This document shows positions 6,965 through 63,075 of a stretch of DNA of 64,000 nucleotides, piece after piece (positions within the stretch are counted from its first letter, which is position 1; each line of letters begins with the position of its first letter). The position numbers were made by a program, and so were the translations under genes. The DNA comes from Anaerolineaceae bacterium (lineage in GTDB: Bacteria; Chloroflexota; Anaerolineae; Anaerolineales; Anaerolineaceae), in contig JAENYZ010000003.1 in NCBI GenBank assembly GCA_016841525.1, positions 62,001-126,000 of the forward strand, read 5' to 3'. The notes beneath the pieces are model-generated. The model was not told the DNA's origin and did no database searches. It saw only the letters and a program-made list of their open reading frames with translations.

Positions 6965-7438
6965 TGAAGTGTTAGAGTAATGCAGGTAATCAGGTATCAG
7001 GCAATCGGGTATCAGGCAATTAGTTACCAGGAATAGCTCTCAAATTATAAGAATTCGTAGGTCACGTATGGTTGCATCGGTAACCTACGTGACATCTGTA
7101 AAACCTGAGATCGCCACGTTATTGCGCTATCGCCGAAGCGGAGAATGGTCACGCCTCCTCTTGATGACAAATCACTAAAACAAATTGATTCGAGTGCCTC
7201 CTGGAATTCCCAATTGGGGTTTACTCAATAATTGGCACCTTATCGCTTATGATGATACAATCATTGTGTTTTTATCCTTATGGGTCAATTGCACATTTTA
7301 CAAATTTATAAGAAAATAAACCCCTGGTTTTGGAAATCGAAATAATTCATTTATTGTTCTGTAGATCAAAACCTATCACAACTCAAACACCATTTTTGTG
7401 TTGTATTAATATCAACAAATTTAGAGAGGATTATTTGT
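6965..7438. other. Repeat-bearing intergenic region
   Basis: This 474-base gap has no convincing gene. It starts with a degenerate tandem of about 15 bp (GTATCAGGCAATCGG-like) at 6992-7020. A hairpin element with an extended homologous flank follows at 7012-7093. Unrelated sequence to about 7300 leads into an A/T-rich promoter region for the sugar symporter, with small inverted repeats around 7390-7420 (AACAC/GTGTT and GTTG/CAAC). Confidence 0.6.
7012..7093 (+). repeat. Dispersed repeat with 33-bp hairpin, copy A
   Basis: The last 33 bases (7061-7093) run from GTCACGTATGG to AACCTACGTGAC and fold into a hairpin with one bulged T. The preceding 48 bases, including CTCTCAAATTATAAGAATTC, are nearly the same as the flank of copy C at 56487-56570 in the opposite orientation, so copies A and C share about 80 bp of homology. 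Confidence 0.8.
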
Positions 7439-54871: not shown

Positions 54872-56122
54872 TTATTCTGTACCGGCAGAAGACTCCCGTA
54901 TAAATTTCCTGGGATCCCAGATTAAAAACATCAATGCAGCTAAAAATGCCAGGCTGCTTCCAAAGAAGAATGGTGCTGATGGGCCAAAACCAGCCCAGGC
55001 ACCTGCCCCCTGCCACAATAAGCCAGCCAACAATGAAGCCGGGAAGTCAATGATTCCCAGCACGGCATTATAGGTACCGTAAGCTGTGCCGCGTAATTCC
55101 GGGGAAACAAGGTCAGCCACCATGGCTTTTGCAGTGCCGTATGCCAAGCCATAATACACGCCGTAAGCGATGTACAGTACCCAAATGTGCCAGGGACGCT
55201 GTGCCAGGGCAAAACCCAGGTAAATAACAGCGTAAACCAGCCAACCCCCAACGATCACCTTGCGCCGTCCAATGCGGTCTGAAAGTGACCCGGCTGGGGC
55301 GGAGACCAGGGTGTAAACCAGGTTAAATGCCGCCAGCATCAGTAAAATTCCCAGGACGCTCAGTCCCCGCTCCTGCGCCCGCAGGACGAGAAAAGCATCC
55401 GATGAATTGCCCAGGTCAAACACACCTACGATCAACAAGAAAACTAAAAAGGGCTTGCCCAAACCTTTGAAGGTGATCTTAGGAGCGGCTTGATCGCTTC
55501 GTTTTACCGTTTCCTGGGCAATAACTGCCAGGCTGATCACCGCCAGAACAGCCGGTACTAGGCTGATTAATACAATAGTGCGGAAGGTATTTTCACCCAG
55601 CTGCAGGTTATTGGACTGCGCCAACCAGACCGCCAGGGCTGCGATCAAAATCCCCAGAACAGCACCACCAGTATCCGCTGCACGGTGAAAGCCAAAGGCA
55701 ATCCCGCGCTGTTCGGGTTCGATCGAATCTGCCACCAGGGCATCACGAGGTGCTGTCCGGATACCTTTACCGATCCGATCCGCCCAGCGTACCCCTGCGA
55801 TCATCTCCCAAGAGTTTGCAATGTAGAAGAAGGGCTTGGCTAATGTTGAGATGCCGTAACCAGCCACCGCCAGCCATTTTCGCCCGCCCAGTTTATCCGA
55901 AAGCCATCCAGAAAAGACTTTTAAAATGCTGGCTGTGGCTTCTGCAATGCCCTCGATGATCCCGATGATGTTGGTTTTTACACCCAGCACATTGGACAGG
56001 AACAGCGGCAGGATGTTGATGACCATCTCGCTGGATATATCCATGAAAAAACTGGTCAGACTGACCGCCCATACATTGCGCGGCAATTTTCGGATTTTGG
56101 AGAGAAAGGTTTTCTGTGTCAT
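54872..56122 (-). CDS. MFS transporter
   Basis: A 416-residue, 12-helix major facilitator. Motif A appears after helix 2 as GWLSDKLGGRKWLAVAGY and again in the second half as GSLSDRIGRRKVIVGGW. The central RIGKGIRTAPRDALVADS is a recurring pattern in a bacterial MFS group of unknown substrate. A ribosome site GGAGAC precedes the ATG. It is the first gene of the group with the PfkB-like kinase and sfsA. Its upstream region is a 730-base repeat cluster, the densest in the window. Confidence 0.87.
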   Translation of the reverse strand: MTQKTFLSKIRKLPRNVWAVSLTSFFMDISSEMVINILPLFLSNVLGVKTNIIGIIEGIAEATASILKVFSGWLSDKLGGRKWLAVAGYGISTLAKPFFYIANSWEMIAGVRWADRIGKGIRTAPRDALVADSIEPEQRGIAFGFHRAADTGGAVLGILIAALAVWLAQSNNLQLGENTFRTIVLISLVPAVLAVISLAVIAQETVKRSDQAAPKITFKGLGKPFLVFLLIVGVFDLGNSSDAFLVLRAQERGLSVLGILLMLAAFNLVYTLVSAPAGSLSDRIGRRKVIVGGWLVYAVIYLGFALAQRPWHIWVLYIAYGVYYGLAYGTAKAMVADLVSPELRGTAYGTYNAVLGIIDFPASLLAGLLWQGAGAWAGFGPSAPFFFGSSLAFLAALMFLIWDPRKFIRESSAGTE

Positions 56123-56251
56123 GGCAGTCTCCTTTGAGTTTTTAGAATTTAATTTATTCTATCAGCTGCGGGACGCGTTTGGGAAATTATTTTGTTGAAA
56201 AGTTTCAGGGGTAACAATTGAATCTCAACACACCGCTTTTGTTTAATGTAG

Positions 56252-56284
56252 GTCATGTATGGCGTCGCCAGACGCCTACATGAC
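56252..56284 (+). repeat. 33-bp hairpin element, copy B
   Basis: The arms are GTCATGTA(T)GGCGTC and GACGCCTACATGAC with loop GCCA. The A-T pair that replaces G-C in both arms (CATG in place of CACG/CGTG) is a compensatory change relative to the other copies. Confidence 0.85.
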
Positions 56285-56298
56285 AATAACGTAATCAA

Positions 56299-56331
56299 AT
56301 CACGTAAATAGCATGCGCAACAATACGTGAG
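56299..56331 (-). repeat. 33-bp hairpin element, degenerate copy F
   Basis: ATCACGTA and TACGTGAG at the two ends, 33 bases apart, with the inner stem lost. It lies 14 bases from copy B and continues into the 90-bp repeat, as copy E does. Confidence 0.55.
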
Positions 56332-56413
56332 CTACGACGTTCTGTCATTATAAGCGAAGCGAGTGCGCAGCCTCCTGTCTACGAAGTGTCCTGTAAGGAA
56401 AGGAAGTAATCTT
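56316..56413 (-). repeat. 90-bp dispersed repeat, copy 1
   Basis: On the minus strand it reads TTTCCTTACAGGACACTTCG, then a GC-rich middle with GCTGCGCACTCGCTTCGCT, then AATGACAGA. Nearly the same sequence is found in the opposite orientation at 61829-61920. Confidence 0.8.
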
Positions 56414-56486
56414 CAGCAATCTTGCAGGGAGGTATATTTACGTTTTGTTCCAGCCCATGATTTTAGAGATACCAGTTCTAAAGTGT

Positions 56487-56570
56487 GTCACGTAGGTTGC
56501 TGACGTAGCCATACGTGACCTACGAATTCTTATAATTTGAGAGCATTTCCTGGTAACTGTTTGCCTGATA
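56487..56570 (-). repeat. Dispersed repeat with 33-bp hairpin, copy C
   Basis: The hairpin (56487-56519) has ends GTCACGTA and TACGTGAC. The flank to 56570 (minus strand: CAGTTACCAGGAA, then CTCTCAAATTATAAGAATTC) matches copy A at 7012-7060. Confidence 0.8.
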
Positions 56571-56618
56571 CCTGATAGCTGATATCTCAATTCCCCATGC
56601 TTGCGAGGGGTAGTCGGG

Positions 56619-56712
56619 ATGACTCTAATTACCCTCATCCGCCACGCCTACGGCGTGCCACCTTCCCCTGGAGCGCAGCGGAACACCTATCAGGTGCTGA
56701 GGGAAGGCTGTT
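56619..56712 (+). repeat. GC-rich module with inverted arms, copy 1
   Basis: An outer part (GACTCTAAT, CCCTCATCCG, then the palindromic CACGCC..GGCGTG) leads to CCACCTTCCCC. Between this arm and GAGGGAAGG lies TGGAGCGCAGCGGAACACC. The other copy (61712-61810) has the same parts, but its interior is turned around relative to the outer flank. Confidence 0.8.
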
Positions 56713-56856
56713 AATACATCAAGCTTTAGGCATCGGCGCAACCATTCGGAACCCACGAATGTTCATAGTTCAAGAGCTGTTCCTGCTACCTGATTGCCTA
56801 ATACCTGATTCCTCATCTGTAACCTACAAATTGTTCACTTACAAGGTTTTTAAGAA

Positions 56857-57876
56857 TCAATATCCTTTATCCGCGTCAATGCGGTTATATAAAGGCAGCT
56901 CTGAAAGATACCGGTTTAAATTCTCAATGAACAAAGCCAGGGTTTCTTCCTCAAGGTGACGGCTGATCCCGGCAACATGAGGACTGATGATCACATTTTC
57001 CATCGCCCACAGGGGGCTGTCCTCCGGTAAAGGTTCCTCTTCAAAAACATCCAGGGCTGCACCAGCAATGCCCTTTATCTTTAATGCGGTGATCAAGGCA
57101 TCCTGGTCAATCAATTCCCCACGTCCCACATTAACCAGGTAAGCCGATGGCTTCATAACCTCTAACGCTTCTTCATCAATGATCCCTCGGGTTTTTTCTG
57201 TCAGCGGCAGGGTCAGCACCACAAAATCACATTCGGATAACATACTGTGCAAAGCTTCCATCGGATACAGTCGGTCAAAAAAGTCCCCATGGGGGTCGCC
57301 CATGCCATCACGGATATAACCGTCATCCTCAGGATGCATCACGTCTTTCTTGGCTGCCAGCACAGTCGGCCCAAAGGGCACCAGCAATCGCGCCACCTGC
57401 CGACCAAGGCTGCCGTAGCCAAGAATCCCCACGGTGCTGTCACGCAGTTCAAGCGGCATCAAATCCTGCCGTTTTTCCTTACGTTTCGGCCAGTGTTTGT
57501 TCCGCTGGTGGATCATCAATTTCGGTAATCTCTGCCCAAATGCCAGTAATGCCATCAATACATATTCCCCAATTTGCCAGGCAATGGCACCGCTCATACT
57601 TGTTGCCACCACCTGACTGAACAGCGCATGGTCAACATAGGAGTCAATTCCGGCGCTGTGAAACTGCACCCAACGCAAATTTTGCGCTATTTCAGGCTCA
57701 GGCAGCACGCTCTGGGTCAGCAGGACTTCCGGCTCCTGCCAGCTTTCTTCAGAGATATCCCCGGGGTTATTTGCTGGGATAACCGTCAATTTCACGTGTT
57801 CAGCAACGCCCTTGATTCGGGCACGTGCGTCTTCAGAGAGGTCAATTGTGGACAGTATATTTATTTTTTCTTTCAT
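56857..57876 (-). CDS. D-2-hydroxyacid dehydrogenase
   Basis: A 339-residue NAD-dependent enzyme that reduces 2-oxoacids (or oxidises D-2-hydroxyacids). The Rossmann motif GILGYGSLGRQVARLL is near residue 150. The catalytic Arg is in NVGRGELIDQDAL, the Glu in LDVFEEEPLPEDSPLW and the His in VIISPHVAG. The length is typical. It follows the CoA-transferase genes on the same strand after 47 bases and could work on the same 2-oxo or 2-hydroxy acid, which would fit amino acid fermentation; the substrate is not readable. Confidence 0.92.
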   Translation of the reverse strand: MKEKINILSTIDLSEDARARIKGVAEHVKLTVIPANNPGDISEESWQEPEVLLTQSVLPEPEIAQNLRWVQFHSAGIDSYVDHALFSQVVATSMSGAIAWQIGEYVLMALLAFGQRLPKLMIHQRNKHWPKRKEKRQDLMPLELRDSTVGILGYGSLGRQVARLLVPFGPTVLAAKKDVMHPEDDGYIRDGMGDPHGDFFDRLYPMEALHSMLSECDFVVLTLPLTEKTRGIIDEEALEVMKPSAYLVNVGRGELIDQDALITALKIKGIAGAALDVFEEEPLPEDSPLWAMENVIISPHVAGISRHLEEETLALFIENLNRYLSELPLYNRIDADKGY

Positions 57877-57923
57877 TTCTTAATCCATTTTGATTTTTTT
57901 AAATTCTAATCCACTGACCTGCA

Positions 57924-58691
57924 TCAAATATAGATTCGCCCCGGGTCAAGCTCCTCGCGCAAGATCCGCAGTTCCTCCTGCTTGGGTGGTTCCGTCACAA
58001 TGCAAGTTTCGGACTGCTTAAGATCCCATCCCGTATTTTCCCGAACCTGGTCAAAGGATACACCCGGGTGCAGCGCTGTCAGGATCAGCTCACCATCTTG
58101 GTTTGGCTGCATCAATCCCAGGTTGGTGACAACCGCCTCAGGCCCTGCCCCGCGCACACCGGTCTCTTTGCGGGCGTCTCCACCCGACAAAAACCCGATC
58201 GAGGTGCGAAAATCCACCCTGGCAGGGAAACGGCGTTTCTGATGCGGGGTGATGATGTAACAGCGGTTCGCCCAGGCAGCAATTTCCATCGAGCCGCCGG
58301 AACCGGGCAAACGCACTTTAGGGTTTTTATAATCGCCAATGACCGTCGCATTGATGTTCCCGAACTGGTCAATTTGTGCCCCGCCTAAAAAGCCCACATC
58401 CACGTTGCCCCGCTGTAGGTAGAGGGTGAAGATATCGTACATGCTGCACACGGATAAGGCACCCGATACCAGGGTCGGGTCACCAATAGAGAGGGGCAAG
58501 CGTGACGGCTGTGCACCGATCACACCCGCTTCGTAGATCATCTGCAAATTGGGCGCGTGTGTCCGCATGGCTAAATTACACGCCAGGTTCGGGATTCCCA
58601 CACCCACAAAGACCACATCGCCGTCGCGCAGCAAACGGGCAGCGTTGACCACCATCAATTCGCTCGGTTTGTAGTTAAGTTCATCCACCAT
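57924..58691 (-). CDS. CoA-transferase subunit B (GctB/IpdB-like)
   Basis: The beta subunit of a family I CoA-transferase. The 255-residue protein shows VFVGVGIPNLACNLAM, the active-site region MIYEAGVIGAQPSRLPLSIGD, and GFLGGAQIDQFGNINATVIG. The start at ATG 58691 is preceded by GAGGATGG; the frame stays open for 89 codons upstream, but that part lies inside subunit A and is a shadow. It starts 13 bases after subunit A ends. The pair resembles glutaconate-type or IpdAB-type transferases more than acetate transferases; the acyl substrate is unknown. Confidence 0.9.
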   Translation of the reverse strand: MVDELNYKPSELMVVNAARLLRDGDVVFVGVGIPNLACNLAMRTHAPNLQMIYEAGVIGAQPSRLPLSIGDPTLVSGALSVCSMYDIFTLYLQRGNVDVGFLGGAQIDQFGNINATVIGDYKNPKVRLPGSGGSMEIAAWANRCYIITPHQKRRFPARVDFRTSIGFLSGGDARKETGVRGAGPEAVVTNLGLMQPNQDGELILTALHPGVSFDQVRENTGWDLKQSETCIVTEPPKQEELRILREELDPGRIYI

Positions 58692-58704
58692 TATGCATCC
58701 ATCC

Positions 58705-59607
58705 TCAATAATCACCATAATTAACAGGCTCAGAAAGCCGGGCACCCGCCGCCAGGCGTTCATGCACATCGGGCCCCAGTTTTTCCCAATAAGCAGCACG
58801 ATCAGGGACGTCGTAAACCCACTCGCACAGGTATTCCCCCACGCGCTCTTCCGTCTTCGAGATCTGATCCCATTCAAGATAAAACTTGTTATCTCGGTCG
58901 TGGTAACCCTGGGTATAGGAAGGATGCGCACAGAAAGGCACGTGGCAGACTGCATCAACGATCAAACCGGGGATCAAGGTGCGGTTCGGGTCAGACCGGA
59001 TCACGCTTTGATCAACAATCTCTTCCGCAGTGAGGATCACTCGTGTGCTGGCAAAAGCTGCCAGGCGCTGCTCACCCAAAATGCCCCAAACGTGGGCGTT
59101 GCCCTCGGCGTCGGCGCGCTGGACGTGCACAACAGCCACATCGGGCTTGAGCGGCGGCACAACCACCACTGCTTCACCGGTGTAGGGATCGTTTACTTTC
59201 TGATAATTGGGGTTCTGATCTGCCAGGTCTGTAGCACCGGTGGCTTTCATCGGCATAAAAGGCAGCCCGTTTGCCCCAGCCTGCAATCGGCTGATCATGC
59301 TGAAATGGGAATACTCCTCCCATTCAAGGGTGCCTACCTCGATGGCTGCGCGAACCCGGCGCAAAGAACCCACGCCCGGGTTGCCCATATATGAAAAAAC
59401 AACTTTGCGCGCACACCCCGCAGCCACCATTTGATCATAAATTAAATCGGGGGTTGCTCGCGCCAGTACCAGGTCTTTAATTCCCTGGCGAATAATTTCA
59501 TGGCCCGCGGCAAAAGGAATTAGGTGTGTAAAGCCGCTGGCGTACAGTGTGTCGCCATCATGGACGTATTCCCTGATGGCATCCTTCAAAGACATTTGTT
59601 TAGTCAT
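58705..59607 (-). CDS. CoA-transferase subunit A
   Basis: The alpha subunit of the same CoA-transferase, 300 residues. Features include the N-terminal YVHDGDTLYASGFTHL, the GNPGVGSLRRVR loop and HVQRADAEGNAHVWG, with late GLIVDAVCHVPFCAHPS. I start at ATG 59607 (MTKQMSLKDAI), supported by GGGAGGA about 10 bases upstream; a longer frame would add nine residues. It overlaps the end of the upstream 96-residue gene by 8 bases. Together with subunit B it moves CoA between carboxylic acids. Confidence 0.9.
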   Translation of the reverse strand: MTKQMSLKDAIREYVHDGDTLYASGFTHLIPFAAGHEIIRQGIKDLVLARATPDLIYDQMVAAGCARKVVFSYMGNPGVGSLRRVRAAIEVGTLEWEEYSHFSMISRLQAGANGLPFMPMKATGATDLADQNPNYQKVNDPYTGEAVVVVPPLKPDVAVVHVQRADAEGNAHVWGILGEQRLAAFASTRVILTAEEIVDQSVIRSDPNRTLIPGLIVDAVCHVPFCAHPSYTQGYHDRDNKFYLEWDQISKTEERVGEYLCEWVYDVPDRAAYWEKLGPDVHERLAAGARLSEPVNYGDY

Positions 59608-59890
59608 CAAATCGATCCTCCCAACCGCGACCATCTTCCTCTATATGCTGTTCATCCTTCTCAGGTTTCTTCCTGAACTTCGAAAATCGCCTGCGGCGTT
59701 CCTCTTTTTTCCTGAAGCGACGCCACAATAAATAGCCCACTAAGAACAGTGCTGAACCAATCAACAGCGCATCGAAATTTGGCTCAGCGGATCCGACCAA
59801 AGCAAAGCCAACAACCAGGAAGATACTGCCGACCAGAAGTGAAAAACACCCAATACGCGAGAGAAGATAACGGATCATCGGTGTGGACAT
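59600..59890 (-). CDS. Small two-helix membrane protein
   Basis: A 96-residue protein with two hydrophobic helices (about residues 14-33 and 39-56) and a highly charged C-terminal half (RRFRKKEERRRRFSKFRKKP, then acidic EDGRGWEDRFDD). No family is recognised. The start used is ATG 59890; ATG 59878 is an alternative. Neither has a clear ribosome site, because a strong 12-bp hairpin ends just one base before the first ATG. It overlaps the CoA-transferase A gene, so it belongs to that transcript. Confidence 0.6.
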   Translation of the reverse strand: MSTPMIRYLLSRIGCFSLLVGSIFLVVGFALVGSAEPNFDALLIGSALFLVGYLLWRRFRKKEERRRRFSKFRKKPEKDEQHIEEDGRGWEDRFDD

Positions 59891-59891
59891 A

Positions 59892-59923
59892 AGACCGGAT
59901 GGCTGTGATATGCCATCCGGTCT
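59892..59923. promoter_or_regulatory. 12-bp hairpin between pruA-like gene and small ORF
   Basis: AGACCGGATGGC and GCCATCCGGTCT pair perfectly with an 8-base loop. There is no good T-run on the minus strand. It could terminate the dehydrogenase message, stabilise its 3' end, or block the start of the next gene. Confidence 0.7.
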
Positions 59924-59949
59924 GTTCTATCCTTTATCCATAGCCAGCG

Positions 59950-61536
59950 CTATGCCCTGCGGACATGCGTCTGGCTTTGTTCGTGCATGTACAGCGGCAG
60001 GTAATACAAACCGCCTGCATTTTTACCGCTTGCACCAGAGCCCTTCCAGCCGCCAAAGGGCTGGAATCCAGGCCATGCACCGGTGGTGGCACCTTGCGGA
60101 CGGTTGGCATAGACCACGCCAGCCTCGATATTATCGAAGAACCAGCCGAGCTCAGCTTCTGTGCCGTAGAACCCTGCGGTCAAACCGTAATTGACATCGT
60201 TTGCCAGTTCCATCGCCTCAGAAAGGCTCTTCACCGGGTGGATCATGGTGATCGGTACAAACATCTCATGCTTCCACAAACGGTGTTCGATGGGCACATC
60301 AACGGCAATTGTTGGCGGGCAGAAATAACCCTTGCCAAAATCGCCCTCGGTCAGCACATCGCCGCCCGTCAAAATCGTGCCGGCTTCTTTGAGCTCACCG
60401 CAGAATTCCTGGAAGTCCCGGTAGGAACTCTTTGTCACCACGGGACCCATGTAGACATTGCGATCCGCAGGGTCGCCGATGTTCAGCTTTTTGGTCAATT
60501 CAACCACGCGTTCGACCAGCTGATCATAAACTTCTTCCTGAACAAAGACACGTGAGCAGGCTGAGCATTTCTGACCTTGCAGACCAAAAGCAGAGCGCAC
60601 AATGCCGACAGCCGCATCTTCAATATCTGCATTCTTTGAAACAATCGCGGGGTTCTTGCCGCCCAATTCCAGGATGGTCGGGCGCACATAATCACCCTGT
60701 GCGAATAAGCGATAAATGCCCATGCCGACATCGAAGGAGCCGGTGAAGGTCAAACCATCGACATCCTTGCTCTCCGTCAGGGCTTTGCCGACCTTTGAGC
60801 CAGGACCCGAAACGTAATTGACCACGCCATCCGGGATGCCAGCCTGGCGCATACAATCGACCAGCAGAGCGGTCGTCCAGGTTGTAGCAGACGCGGGCTT
60901 GATCACCAGGGTATTGCCAGCGACCAGGGCTGCGCCGGAAGGGCCGCCCGTCAATGCTGCGGGGAAGTTGAAGGGGCTGATCACCACCCATACACCGTAG
61001 GGTTTGAGCACAGAATAGTTGGTGACATTATAGCCGACCAGGGGGTCCACACCCATTTTAGCCTTGTAGCCATGGTTGGCTTCCATCTGGCTGCAGGCGT
61101 AGCGGATCAGGTCAGCAGTTTCAGCAATATCACCCAGGGCTTCCATGCGGTTCTTGCCCACTTCAAGGGTGATCACTGCGCCGATTTCAAACAAGCGCTG
61201 ATCGATGATGGAGGCTGCTTTCCTGAGCAGGTACACCCGCTCATCCCAGTTCATTCGGCTCCACTTGGGGAAAGCTTCACGGGCTGCTGCAATTGCATCT
61301 TCAGCATCCTTTTCGGTGCCTTTTTGGAAAGTTGCCAGGTGAATATCGGTATTGATGGGTGAGTATTCTTTAACTTTTCCTTCTACAAAGCGTTCTTCCC
61401 CACCAATGATCATGGGATATTCCTGACCCAAATTTGCCTTCAAGCTTGCCATTGCTTCGTCAAACCGGGTGTGCAGTTCTTCGGGTGGGTTGAACATGGT
61501 CGCGTAAGTTAACTTAAACGACGATTCTTGTGCCAT
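59950..61536 (-). CDS. Aldehyde dehydrogenase, probable P5C dehydrogenase
   Basis: A 528-residue NAD(P)-dependent aldehyde dehydrogenase. The active-site Glu is in ILELGGKNPAIV (near 291) and the catalytic Cys in LQGQKCSACSRVFV (near 323). The coenzyme region SPFNFPAALTGGPSGAALVAGN and SFDVGMGI are clear. The GQKCSACSR wording is typical of L-glutamate gamma-semialdehyde (1-pyrroline-5-carboxylate) dehydrogenases of the RocA/PruA type, the second step of proline breakdown. No proline dehydrogenase is nearby. AGGAGGA precedes the ATG. It heads a catabolic run with the CoA-transferase and 2-hydroxyacid dehydrogenase. Confidence 0.88.
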   Translation of the reverse strand: MAQESSFKLTYATMFNPPEELHTRFDEAMASLKANLGQEYPMIIGGEERFVEGKVKEYSPINTDIHLATFQKGTEKDAEDAIAAAREAFPKWSRMNWDERVYLLRKAASIIDQRLFEIGAVITLEVGKNRMEALGDIAETADLIRYACSQMEANHGYKAKMGVDPLVGYNVTNYSVLKPYGVWVVISPFNFPAALTGGPSGAALVAGNTLVIKPASATTWTTALLVDCMRQAGIPDGVVNYVSGPGSKVGKALTESKDVDGLTFTGSFDVGMGIYRLFAQGDYVRPTILELGGKNPAIVSKNADIEDAAVGIVRSAFGLQGQKCSACSRVFVQEEVYDQLVERVVELTKKLNIGDPADRNVYMGPVVTKSSYRDFQEFCGELKEAGTILTGGDVLTEGDFGKGYFCPPTIAVDVPIEHRLWKHEMFVPITMIHPVKSLSEAMELANDVNYGLTAGFYGTEAELGWFFDNIEAGVVYANRPQGATTGAWPGFQPFGGWKGSGASGKNAGGLYYLPLYMHEQSQTHVRRA

Positions 61537-61661
61537 AGGACTTGATTCCTCCTGTTAAATATTGGACAGATTAAGGTTCGGTTACGCTCAGATTGTATCA
61601 CAAATTGGTTTTTCTGATGCTGTGGGGAAGGCTTTCAGGTATCAGGTATTAGGATTCGTAG

Positions 61662-61694
61662 GTCACGTATGGCGTCGCTAGACGCCTGCGTGAC
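61662..61694 (+). repeat. 33-bp hairpin element, copy D
   Basis: GTCACGTA(T)GGCGTC and GACGCCTGCGTGAC with loop GCTA; one G-U type pair in the outer stem. It lies just left of the GC-rich module. Confidence 0.85.
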
Positions 61695-61711
61695 ATCCCA
61701 TAGAATTGATA

Positions 61712-61810
61712 TCTCCAAAAAGCCTTCCCCTGGAGCGCAGCGGAACACCTTTAGGTGTAGGGGGAAGGTGGCACGCCGCAGGCGTGACGGATGAGGGACA
61801 TTAGAGTCAT
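61712..61810 (-). repeat. GC-rich module with inverted arms, copy 2
   Basis: On the plus strand: AGCCTTCCCC, TGGAGCGCAGCGGAACACC, AGGTGTAGGGGGAAGG, then GGCACGCC..GGCGTGACGG, ATGAGGG and ATTAGAGTCAT. The outer flank is inverted relative to copy 1, but the TGGAGCGCAGCGG interior is not. Confidence 0.8.
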
Positions 61811-61828
61811 ACCCCGGCAAGATCATTA

Positions 61829-61920
61829 CGAGATTACTTTCTTTCCTTACAGGACACTTCGTAGACAGCAGGCTGCGCACTCGCTTCGCTCGTAATGACA
61901 GAGCGTCGTAGGTCACGTAT
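61829..61920 (+). repeat. 90-bp dispersed repeat, copy 2
   Basis: Contains CTTTCCTTACAGGACACTTC, GTAGACAGCAGGCTGCGCAC and TCGCTTCGCTCGTAATGACA. It runs directly into hairpin copy E, as copy 1 runs into degenerate copy F. Confidence 0.8.
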
Positions 61921-61944
61921 GGTTACATTAGCAACCCACGTGAC
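61912..61944 (+). repeat. 33-bp hairpin element, copy E
   Basis: GTCACGTATGGTT and AACCCACGTGAC at the ends; inner pairs are GGTT/AACC as in copy A, with one mismatch in the outer stem. Confidence 0.8.
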
Positions 61945-62124
61945 ACCATCAAAGCTTGAAAAACCAATCTCCTACACTCATTACCCTAATATCAATTAAC
62001 CCTTATTTCTCTTCATAAAGCAATTTCCATTCAAACCTTATACAAAAACTTTGAAATCATCAACCCATCCCATATCATAAGACTATCGAAAACAAAATAA
62101 AAAATAAAAAACAAGGAGTTTTAA

Positions 62125-63075
62125 ATGTTCAAAAATAAATGGTTTTATGCAGTATCACTTTTCGTTGCACTCGCTTTAGTTGGTGCAAGCTTTGCCCCCG
62201 TACAGGCACAGGAAGCCGGCGACACAATCGTTGACATCGCCGTTGCTGACGGCCGCTTCGACACCCTCGTTGCAGCCCTGGGCGCCGCCGGTTTAGCCGA
62301 GACATTGGCTGGCGAAGGTCCATTCACCGTCTTCGCACCCACCGACGCCGCATTCTCACGACTGCCCGAAGGCACCGTGGAAGCCCTGCTGAATGACATC
62401 CCCGCCCTGACCGACATCCTCCTCTACCACGTCGTCTCCGGCGAGGTCATGGCAGAGCAAGCTCTCGAATTGGGCCAGGCTGAGACCCTTCAGGGCCAGT
62501 CCCTGAGCATTATGTTCGATGAAGGCAACATCCTCATCCCCGGCGGCCTGGTTTACGTCAATGACGCATGGGTACGTATCACCGACATCCAGGCATCCAA
62601 CGGCGTGATCCATGTTATTGATCGTGTCCTTCTGCCCGGCGAAGAAACCGCTGAAGAAGAATCCATGGGCACCATCGTTGACATTGCCGTCGCCGACGGA
62701 CGTTTCACAACCCTCGTCGCCGCCCTCCAGGCAGCCGAATTAGTTGAGACACTCTCTGGCGAAGGCCCCTTCACAGTATTTGCCCCCACGGACGATGCAT
62801 TTGGCAAACTCCCCGAGGGAACTGTAGAAGGATTATTGAATGATATTCCTGCCCTGACCGACATCCTCCTGTACCATGTCGTTTCCGGTGAAGTATTAGC
62901 AGCAGATGTTGTAGAACTGGAATCAGCCGAGACAGTACTGGGTGAGCCCGTCAGCATCCGTGTGGAAGATGGCAATGTGTACATCAACGACTCAATGGTC
63001 ATCATCACCGACATTATGGCAGACAACGGCGTGATCCACGTGATTGACAGCGTCTTACTGCCCCCAGCAAACTAA
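62125..63075 (+). CDS. Secreted protein with two FAS1 domains
   Basis: A 316-residue exported protein with a signal peptide ending near VQAQE (residue 29) and two fasciclin domains (about 33-172 and 183-314). Each has the H1 motif [13 protein letters not shown] or [13 protein letters not shown] and the H2-like [10 protein letters not shown]; the domains are roughly three-quarters identical, implying internal duplication. FAS1 domains mediate adhesion or matrix binding. No anchor motif or helix follows the second domain, so it is probably released or bound to the wall by other means. The gene has a GC- and C-ending-codon-rich first half unlike its A/T-rich surroundings, compatible with high expression. 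AAGGAG precedes ATG and a strong terminator follows. Confidence 0.93.

Follow-up and report, generated by a model that had tools for sequence, protein, structure and literature searches.

Probable GTAG-type REP elements in an Anaerolineaceae genome, with linked RAYT genes in sister species

What are the short hairpins that recur between genes in this stretch of Anaerolineaceae DNA, and which process could have placed them there? The window, meaning the whole stretch of 64,000 nucleotides that was analyzed, had been described in an earlier note as carrying six 33-bp hairpins with covarying arms, which were thought to resemble either REP/MITE-like elements or protein-binding palindromes and were not assigned to any named family. 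All six were found again at exactly the positions claimed. The evidence points to GTAG-type REP elements, a reading to which we give a probability of roughly 0.93. The features expected of such elements are present: a tag at the 5′ foot, a stem-loop of 20–40 nt with paired changes, interspersed and mostly intergenic copies, and inverted dimers. The REP-like guess can thus be made more precise, as a GTAG-type REP with an associated RAYT. No name was found for this sequence family either, though its kind is well known.

The 33-bp span is correct as far as it goes, and the true element is larger and directional, consisting of GTAG followed by 33 nt. The tag adjoins the span on one side only, and the copies in the window therefore have an orientation. 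Two of the four plus-strand copies lie at 7057–7093 (tag 7057–7060), reading GTAG plus GTCACGTA-T-GGTTGC / GTAACC-TACGTGAC, and at 56248–56284 (tag 56248–56251), with an inner stem of GGCGTC/GACGCC and CATG in both outer arms. The other four are a degenerate copy on the minus strand at 56299–56335 (tag 56332–56335); a second minus-strand copy at 56487–56523 (tag 56520–56523), in which one arm of the inner stem has decayed; a plus-strand copy of the GGCGTC/GACGCC type at 61658–61694 (tag 61658–61661); and a weakened plus-strand copy of the GGTTAC/GCAACC type at 61908–61944 (tag 61908–61911). Folded as single-stranded DNA, the spans at 7061, 56252 and 61662 form the full stem, with an 8-bp outer part, a bulged T and a 6-bp inner part (z −5.2 to −7.1), and the inner stem is weakened at 61912 (z −4.1) and 56487 (z −2.9). 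The span at 56299–56331 folds poorly (z −1.3, with 23 of 200 shuffles folding equally well), in agreement with its earlier description as degenerate. Over the window, the covariance model scores the six copies at 50–62 bits (E 9e-12 to 4e-15), values that are partly set by construction, since the model was trained on 23 copies that include these six.

The genome from which the window comes (G000; 3.2 Mb in nine contigs, 97.3% complete) contains the family well beyond these six copies. A 1186-aa protein encoded in the window shares 84–85% identity with proteins of an Anaerolineaceae MAG and of 'Brevefilum sp. isolate C14-21', and the host is accordingly taken as a Brevefilum-like member of Anaerolineaceae. 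The genome-wide search with a covariance model that had been proposed returned 32 rows for 30 distinct sites, 29 of the long type and one of a short type, two of the rows being reverse-strand readings of the same hairpin. A two-arm pattern without the tag, allowing up to three mismatches, was found at 17 places compared with 6 for a reversed control. GTAG stands directly before one arm in 15 of the 17, the other two having GCAG and GTAT; at one of the 17, the second arm was matched by chance inside a long-loop copy. When the tag was included, the pattern occurred 30 times, compared with 3 and 5 per strand for the control; L035, which has no hairpin, was dropped, leaving 29 copies. The consensus element is GTAG | GTCACGTA | T | GGTYGC | loop | GCRACC | TACGTGAC, or 37 nt with the tag. 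The base 5′ of the tag is a pyrimidine in all 29 copies (19 C, 10 T), and the loop is about 28–29 nt longer in 6 of them. The alignment and the model were built from 23 of the 30 places, leaving out L035 and the long-loop copies L007, L014, L018, L019, L029 and L030.

Covariation of the arms was a central part of the original description. Across the 14-pair structure in the 23 copies, 94.7% of cells are paired compared with 86.5% in shuffles, and 28 cells are changed on both sides compared with 7.9, a value reached by none of 500 shuffles. This excess of double changes stands, and two other measures are weaker: pairs with a double change number 5 of 14 (3.2 in shuffles; reached by 38 of 500), and extra pair types number 16 (13.5 in shuffles; reached by 26 of 500). 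Of five measures in all, three exceed the shuffles, and covariation is far above slid controls. The paired changes fall on two outer pairs and on three inner ones, where the variants include GGTTGC, GGTCGC and GGCGTC. Covariation is real but uneven, and the copying of a small number of inner-stem sub-types accounts for much of it. Because copies derive from each other, it reflects the copying of paired variants. The claim that the paired structure is what is kept holds in that sense and does not imply selection on each copy, as illustrated by 56487–56519, where part of the inner stem has been lost that is still present in the sister copy.

A second tagged hairpin, short and perfect (GTAGGTCACGTTTCCAACGTGAC type), occurs at nine distinct places in the same genome (ten rows, one site having been read on both strands). 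Five of the nine face a long hairpin with the GTAG ends outward and 88–173 bp from GTAG to GTAG; random placement within 200 bp, in 2000 trials on the five contigs concerned, gave a mean of 0.03 facing pairs and a maximum of 2. One facing pair of two long hairpins is present in the window, an 88-bp REPIN-like dimer at 56248–56335 (C9:118248 + and C9:118335 − in genome coordinates) that has GTAG at each outer end, the same layout as in the long-short pairs. Facing pairs with their tags outward have the BIME/REPIN layout. In a REPIN, two REPs face each other with tags outward and form one unit, and the window pair is arranged in this way; unlike in REPINs, no facing partner was found for most copies here, and five of the six counted facing pairs join two different hairpins. 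The GTAG tag, the bulged stem and the inverted pairs are the anatomy of REPs and BIMEs, and on these grounds the family is assigned to REP.

Linkage to a transposase of the RAYT type, which had been put forward as a check, was found in two genomes of the same genus (G005 and G004) and not in the own genome, whose two clear RAYTs fall in a different clade. Matches to Y1_Tnp are present in 15 of 16 genomes of the genus. G005 contains three RAYTs of one clade, at C1:6014–6517, C145:1304–1807 and C90:2268–2771, and model matches lie on both sides of each. The nearest tags are 38–122 bp from the C1 and C145 genes, the latter of which has an inner stop near the gene end, and the hairpins flanking the C90 gene are 53 and 8 bp away. 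At L063 the bracketing hairpins are of the long and short types; at the other two loci, L056 and L203, they are a long sub-type that differs in its inner part and scores low (24–29 bits and 19 bits). In G004, where linkage is seen as far as contig ends allow, a C-terminal RAYT piece at a contig start (C22:3–359) precedes an array in which long and short hairpins alternate; two further pieces, both N-terminal and at contig ends (C27, C50), have a long hairpin 47 bp off. The two hairpin-linked RAYTs that were tested match REP_Tyr_transpos in NCBIfam at 147–148 bits (cut-off 80). Furthermore, L056 matches E. coli TnpAREP (4er8) at 1.3e-26, in an alignment that pairs up the HUH, WQ and Tyr115 positions. 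In G012, tagged GTCACRTG hairpins occur close to a Y1 protein (L041) that contains an inner stop and was unmatched by the RAYT queries.

The three RAYTs with the GTCACGTA hairpin type that were put in a tree (L049, L056 and L063) form one clade (99/98), apart from both resident RAYTs of the own genome; L203, 81% identical to L056, stands outside the tree. Five of 43 rows were left out, namely the doubles L107, L110 and L121 and the distant L050 and L062. Repeat labels were set by eye, with L116 and L133, which have one odd hairpin each, labelled 'none'. Closely related RAYTs in the tree have similar repeats, a correspondence that becomes loose at deeper forks: the next relatives have GGCGGGCA, GTCAGGCA and GCCGGGT, and one GTCAGGTTC occurs in another clade.

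The situation in the own genome is different. Pfam Y1_Tnp identifies two proteins, both REP_Tyr_transpos in NCBIfam (166.8 and 184.4 bits). The RAYT on C9 (about C9:545398/545503) lies among GTAGGGCGGGATG repeats and that on C1 (about C1:237432/237471) between long GTAGGGTGGGTTGG repeats, so that each of the two loci (L005 at C9:545 kb and L006 at C1:237 kb) has a GTAG repeat family on both sides, with GTAG and CTAC ends facing outward around the gene. No tagged hairpin was found in the scan at the C1 RAYT because the GTAGGGTGGGTTGG repeats are long. One GTCACGTA copy lies about 340 bp upstream of this gene, beyond those repeats; it was rejected as a cognate link, the direct neighbours being the long GTAGGGTGGGTTGG repeats. 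A RAYT flanked directly by the GTCACGTA family was not found in this genome. Among its five RAYT-like places (E <= 1, weak to clear), only the one on C1 has a model match within 1.5 kb. More widely, 11 of 27 RAYT-like places were given a neighbourhood check of about 1.5 kb, and at these 11 loci (own genome and G011–G014) no model match was found except at the own C1.

Searching the own genome, G001 and G011–G014 with L056 gave no close relative, the best matches reaching 41% identity over most of the length, or 46% in fragments of 39 and 56 residues; the own genome's best two RAYTs are 38–41% identical to L056. Model rows are nonetheless present in all six: 32 in G000, 5 in G001, 10 in G011, 28 in G012, 6 in G013 and 15 in G014. 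A RAYT of the cognate clade is likely to be absent from the genomes without a match, and likely only, since the assemblies are 71 to 98% complete. Given that the resident RAYTs fall in a different clade and are surrounded by different repeats, the hairpin family looks orphaned in the own genome, its cognate RAYT seemingly lost, and the pairing of hairpin and RAYT consequently rests on the sister species.

The family has a narrow distribution. Model matches occur in 11 of 16 genomes of the genus (150 candidates scored per genome). At E <= 1e-5, a scan of the taxonomic family (42 candidates scored per genome) matched 9 of 147 genomes, all of the genus, with no match in the 131 genomes of other genera; a scan of the class (15 candidates scored per genome, so that weaker matches were lost) matched 2 of 396, both again of the genus. 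Judged by these sequence searches, the hairpins are confined to the genus at a sensitivity of E <= 1e-5.

Comparison with G014, which has 88–91% DNA identity to the own genome over long aligned stretches, shows what happens to individual copies. For the sites near 56 kb the comparison used contig L038 (G014:C66), the G014 stretch L163 giving the same alignment pattern. The ortholog of 7061 has the same arms and flanks and a loop that is 29 bases longer. The copy at 56487 is conserved with its inner stem intact, and at 56252 the sister contig has a GGCGTC-GCCA-type copy in the opposite orientation. The comparison covers the window up to 61662, where the alignment ends just before the copy and G014 continues with other repeats to its contig end about 400 bp on; 61912 lies past this point. 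Sites shared with the sister species thus include a conserved copy, a flipped one and one whose loop is 29 bases longer there. Outside the window, C8:74954/75224 is a 270-bp tandem doubling in the own genome compared with one copy in G014. The orthologous gap in G011 is shorter, without a copy of the family and with another GTAG hairpin, and is so highly diverged that an insertion target cannot be defined there.

By analogy with E. coli and Stenotrophomonas, a RAYT, as a Y1/HUH single-strand nuclease, would bind the tagged hairpin in single-stranded DNA, cut next to it with GTAG as a guide, and allow the cut hairpin to be rejoined elsewhere, so that hairpins and hairpin dimers would spread as non-autonomous elements. 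This single-strand cutting and rejoining is carried over from those other species. In the own genome the cognate RAYT would have been lost, with the copies persisting as a decaying, still rearranging population. It is a tentative and rather doubtful suggestion that in at least five species (the own and G011–G014) the REP population has outlived its own transposase yet keeps rearranging, either through a RAYT of another clade acting in trans or through use by the host.

A refinement compatible with the REP identity is that a resident RAYT, at C1:237432 or C9:545398, moves the family in trans. The copy that precedes the C1 RAYT by about 340 bp, the intact arms of several copies, and the flip, tandem doubling and loop change that separate orthologous sites in the own genome and G014 would all agree with such movement, but recombination can also yield differences of these three kinds, GTAGGG repeats stand directly beside both resident RAYTs, and RAYTs that group closely in the tree have similar repeats (by-eye labels, loose at deeper forks). 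We regard this refinement as doubtful.

The positions of the copies relative to genes are relevant to another explanation, in which they serve as transcription terminators or RNA 3′-end hairpins and are kept for folding in mRNA. All six in the window lie between longer ORFs, in line with the earlier claim of gene-free gaps as judged from an ORF list in place of gene calls; in the same list, co-directional ORFs flank 7061 and the three copies at 56.2–56.5 kb, and divergent ORFs flank 61662 and 61912. Crude ORF calls put 12 of the 29 genomic copies in convergent gaps, 10 in co-directional and 4 in divergent ones; the other 3 lie inside or across an ORF call, 3 more touch an ORF edge and 23 are free. 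The copy at 61912 counts among the four in divergent gaps, and the row for 61662 is clouded by a 94-aa ORF call. The convergent and co-directional positions, along with the strong folding of most window copies, are what terminators would show, but a bias toward such gaps is also reported for REPs (PMC3733652), and the context of the own-genome copies fits it. A terminator would need neither a tag on one side nor conservation of the arm sequence, some copies (4 of 29, including 61912, and also 61662) lie in divergent gaps, and RAYT linkage is seen in sister species, all of which makes this explanation very improbable. An Rfam search of 56000–62200 gave two matches far below the gathering score, neither at a copy. 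Effects of the hairpins on the mRNA ends of neighbouring genes are possible. An operator-like palindrome for a transcription factor or nucleoid protein, as in the alternative guess of the earlier note, might account for the conserved, near-perfectly palindromic outer arms GTCACGTA/TACGTGAC and for two copies in one divergent gap, but a duplex operator has no need of a one-sided GTAG, a bulge or paired inner-stem changes, and direction, tag, dimers with GTAG outward and RAYT linkage favour REP and leave it unneeded, with hardly any chance of being correct.

Several known systems resemble these GTAG-type REPs. As described in PMC3733652, the GTAG REP superfamily has GTAG at one end of a small stem-loop, mostly intergenic copies, inverted dimers, varied loop length, RAYT linkage and sub-families whose stems differ by alternative, mutually complementary residues; families of 20–100 units or fewer are common there, a size that matches the one here. 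The comparison with that paper is by description, apart from its 24 family consensuses in Figure 1, with one of which this family may be identical. The paper already names Chloroflexi as hosts of GTAG repeats and notes that REPtrons can be missing from REP-bearing genomes, for example many E. coli strains; the own genome, in which a cognate RAYT was not found, differs from the linked arrangement in this way. The y and z REPs and BIMEs of E. coli (PMC8266576) share GTAG, an imperfect stem interrupted by a bulge and the combination of two hairpin types, and the sister genome G005 has a RAYT of the TnpAREP family. In E. coli the interruption is an AA-GC mismatch, whereas here it is a single T, and the partner here is a short perfect hairpin. 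E. coli TnpAREP is reported in PMC8266576 to cut at CT 5′ or 3′ of the hairpin and to require both GTAG and the bulge. Among the literature matches listed, a scope that leaves out most subscription papers, no description of REPs in Chloroflexi, Anaerolineaceae or Brevefilum appeared. The present analysis adds a clear REP/RAYT system in Anaerolineaceae that comprises RAYT genes, dimers and hairpins of two types. REPtron loss as such is already in print (PMC3733652), and sister species that have the same hairpins with or without the matching RAYT offer a natural comparison for a REP population after RAYT loss.

Other repeats occur beside and within the REPs. One intergenic repeat with CCTTCCCCTGGAGCGCAGCGGAACACCT adjoins them as inverted copies at 56600–56780 and 61720–61800, and is absent from the place in L038 orthologous to 56.6 kb. 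A further repeat, around CTACGAAGTGTCCTGTAAGGAAAGGAAG, is found in inverted copies beside REPs at 56340–56420 and 61840–61900, and the C9 RAYT has a similar stretch at a distance of about 1.4 kb. Short tandem units like CAGGTATCAGGTAATCAGG stand beside several REPs (6982–7035, 56545–56590 and 61636–61655) and are longer in G014 at the 7.0-kb and 61.6-kb places. The loops of some REPs contain a module of 28–30 bp like CATCCCACTNCGCTTCGCTTCGGGGACA, namely at L165 in G014 and at the six long-loop loci of the own genome. A pattern for this insert gave no match in G011; it matched five times in G000, each within a REP loop, and three times in G014, two of them in a REP or half-REP context. In G012 (10 matches) and G013 (7), it lies within other intergenic repeats, one match being beside a short REP. 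The loop may therefore have been swapped or invaded by a module like CATCCCACTNCGCTTCGCTTCGGGGACA.
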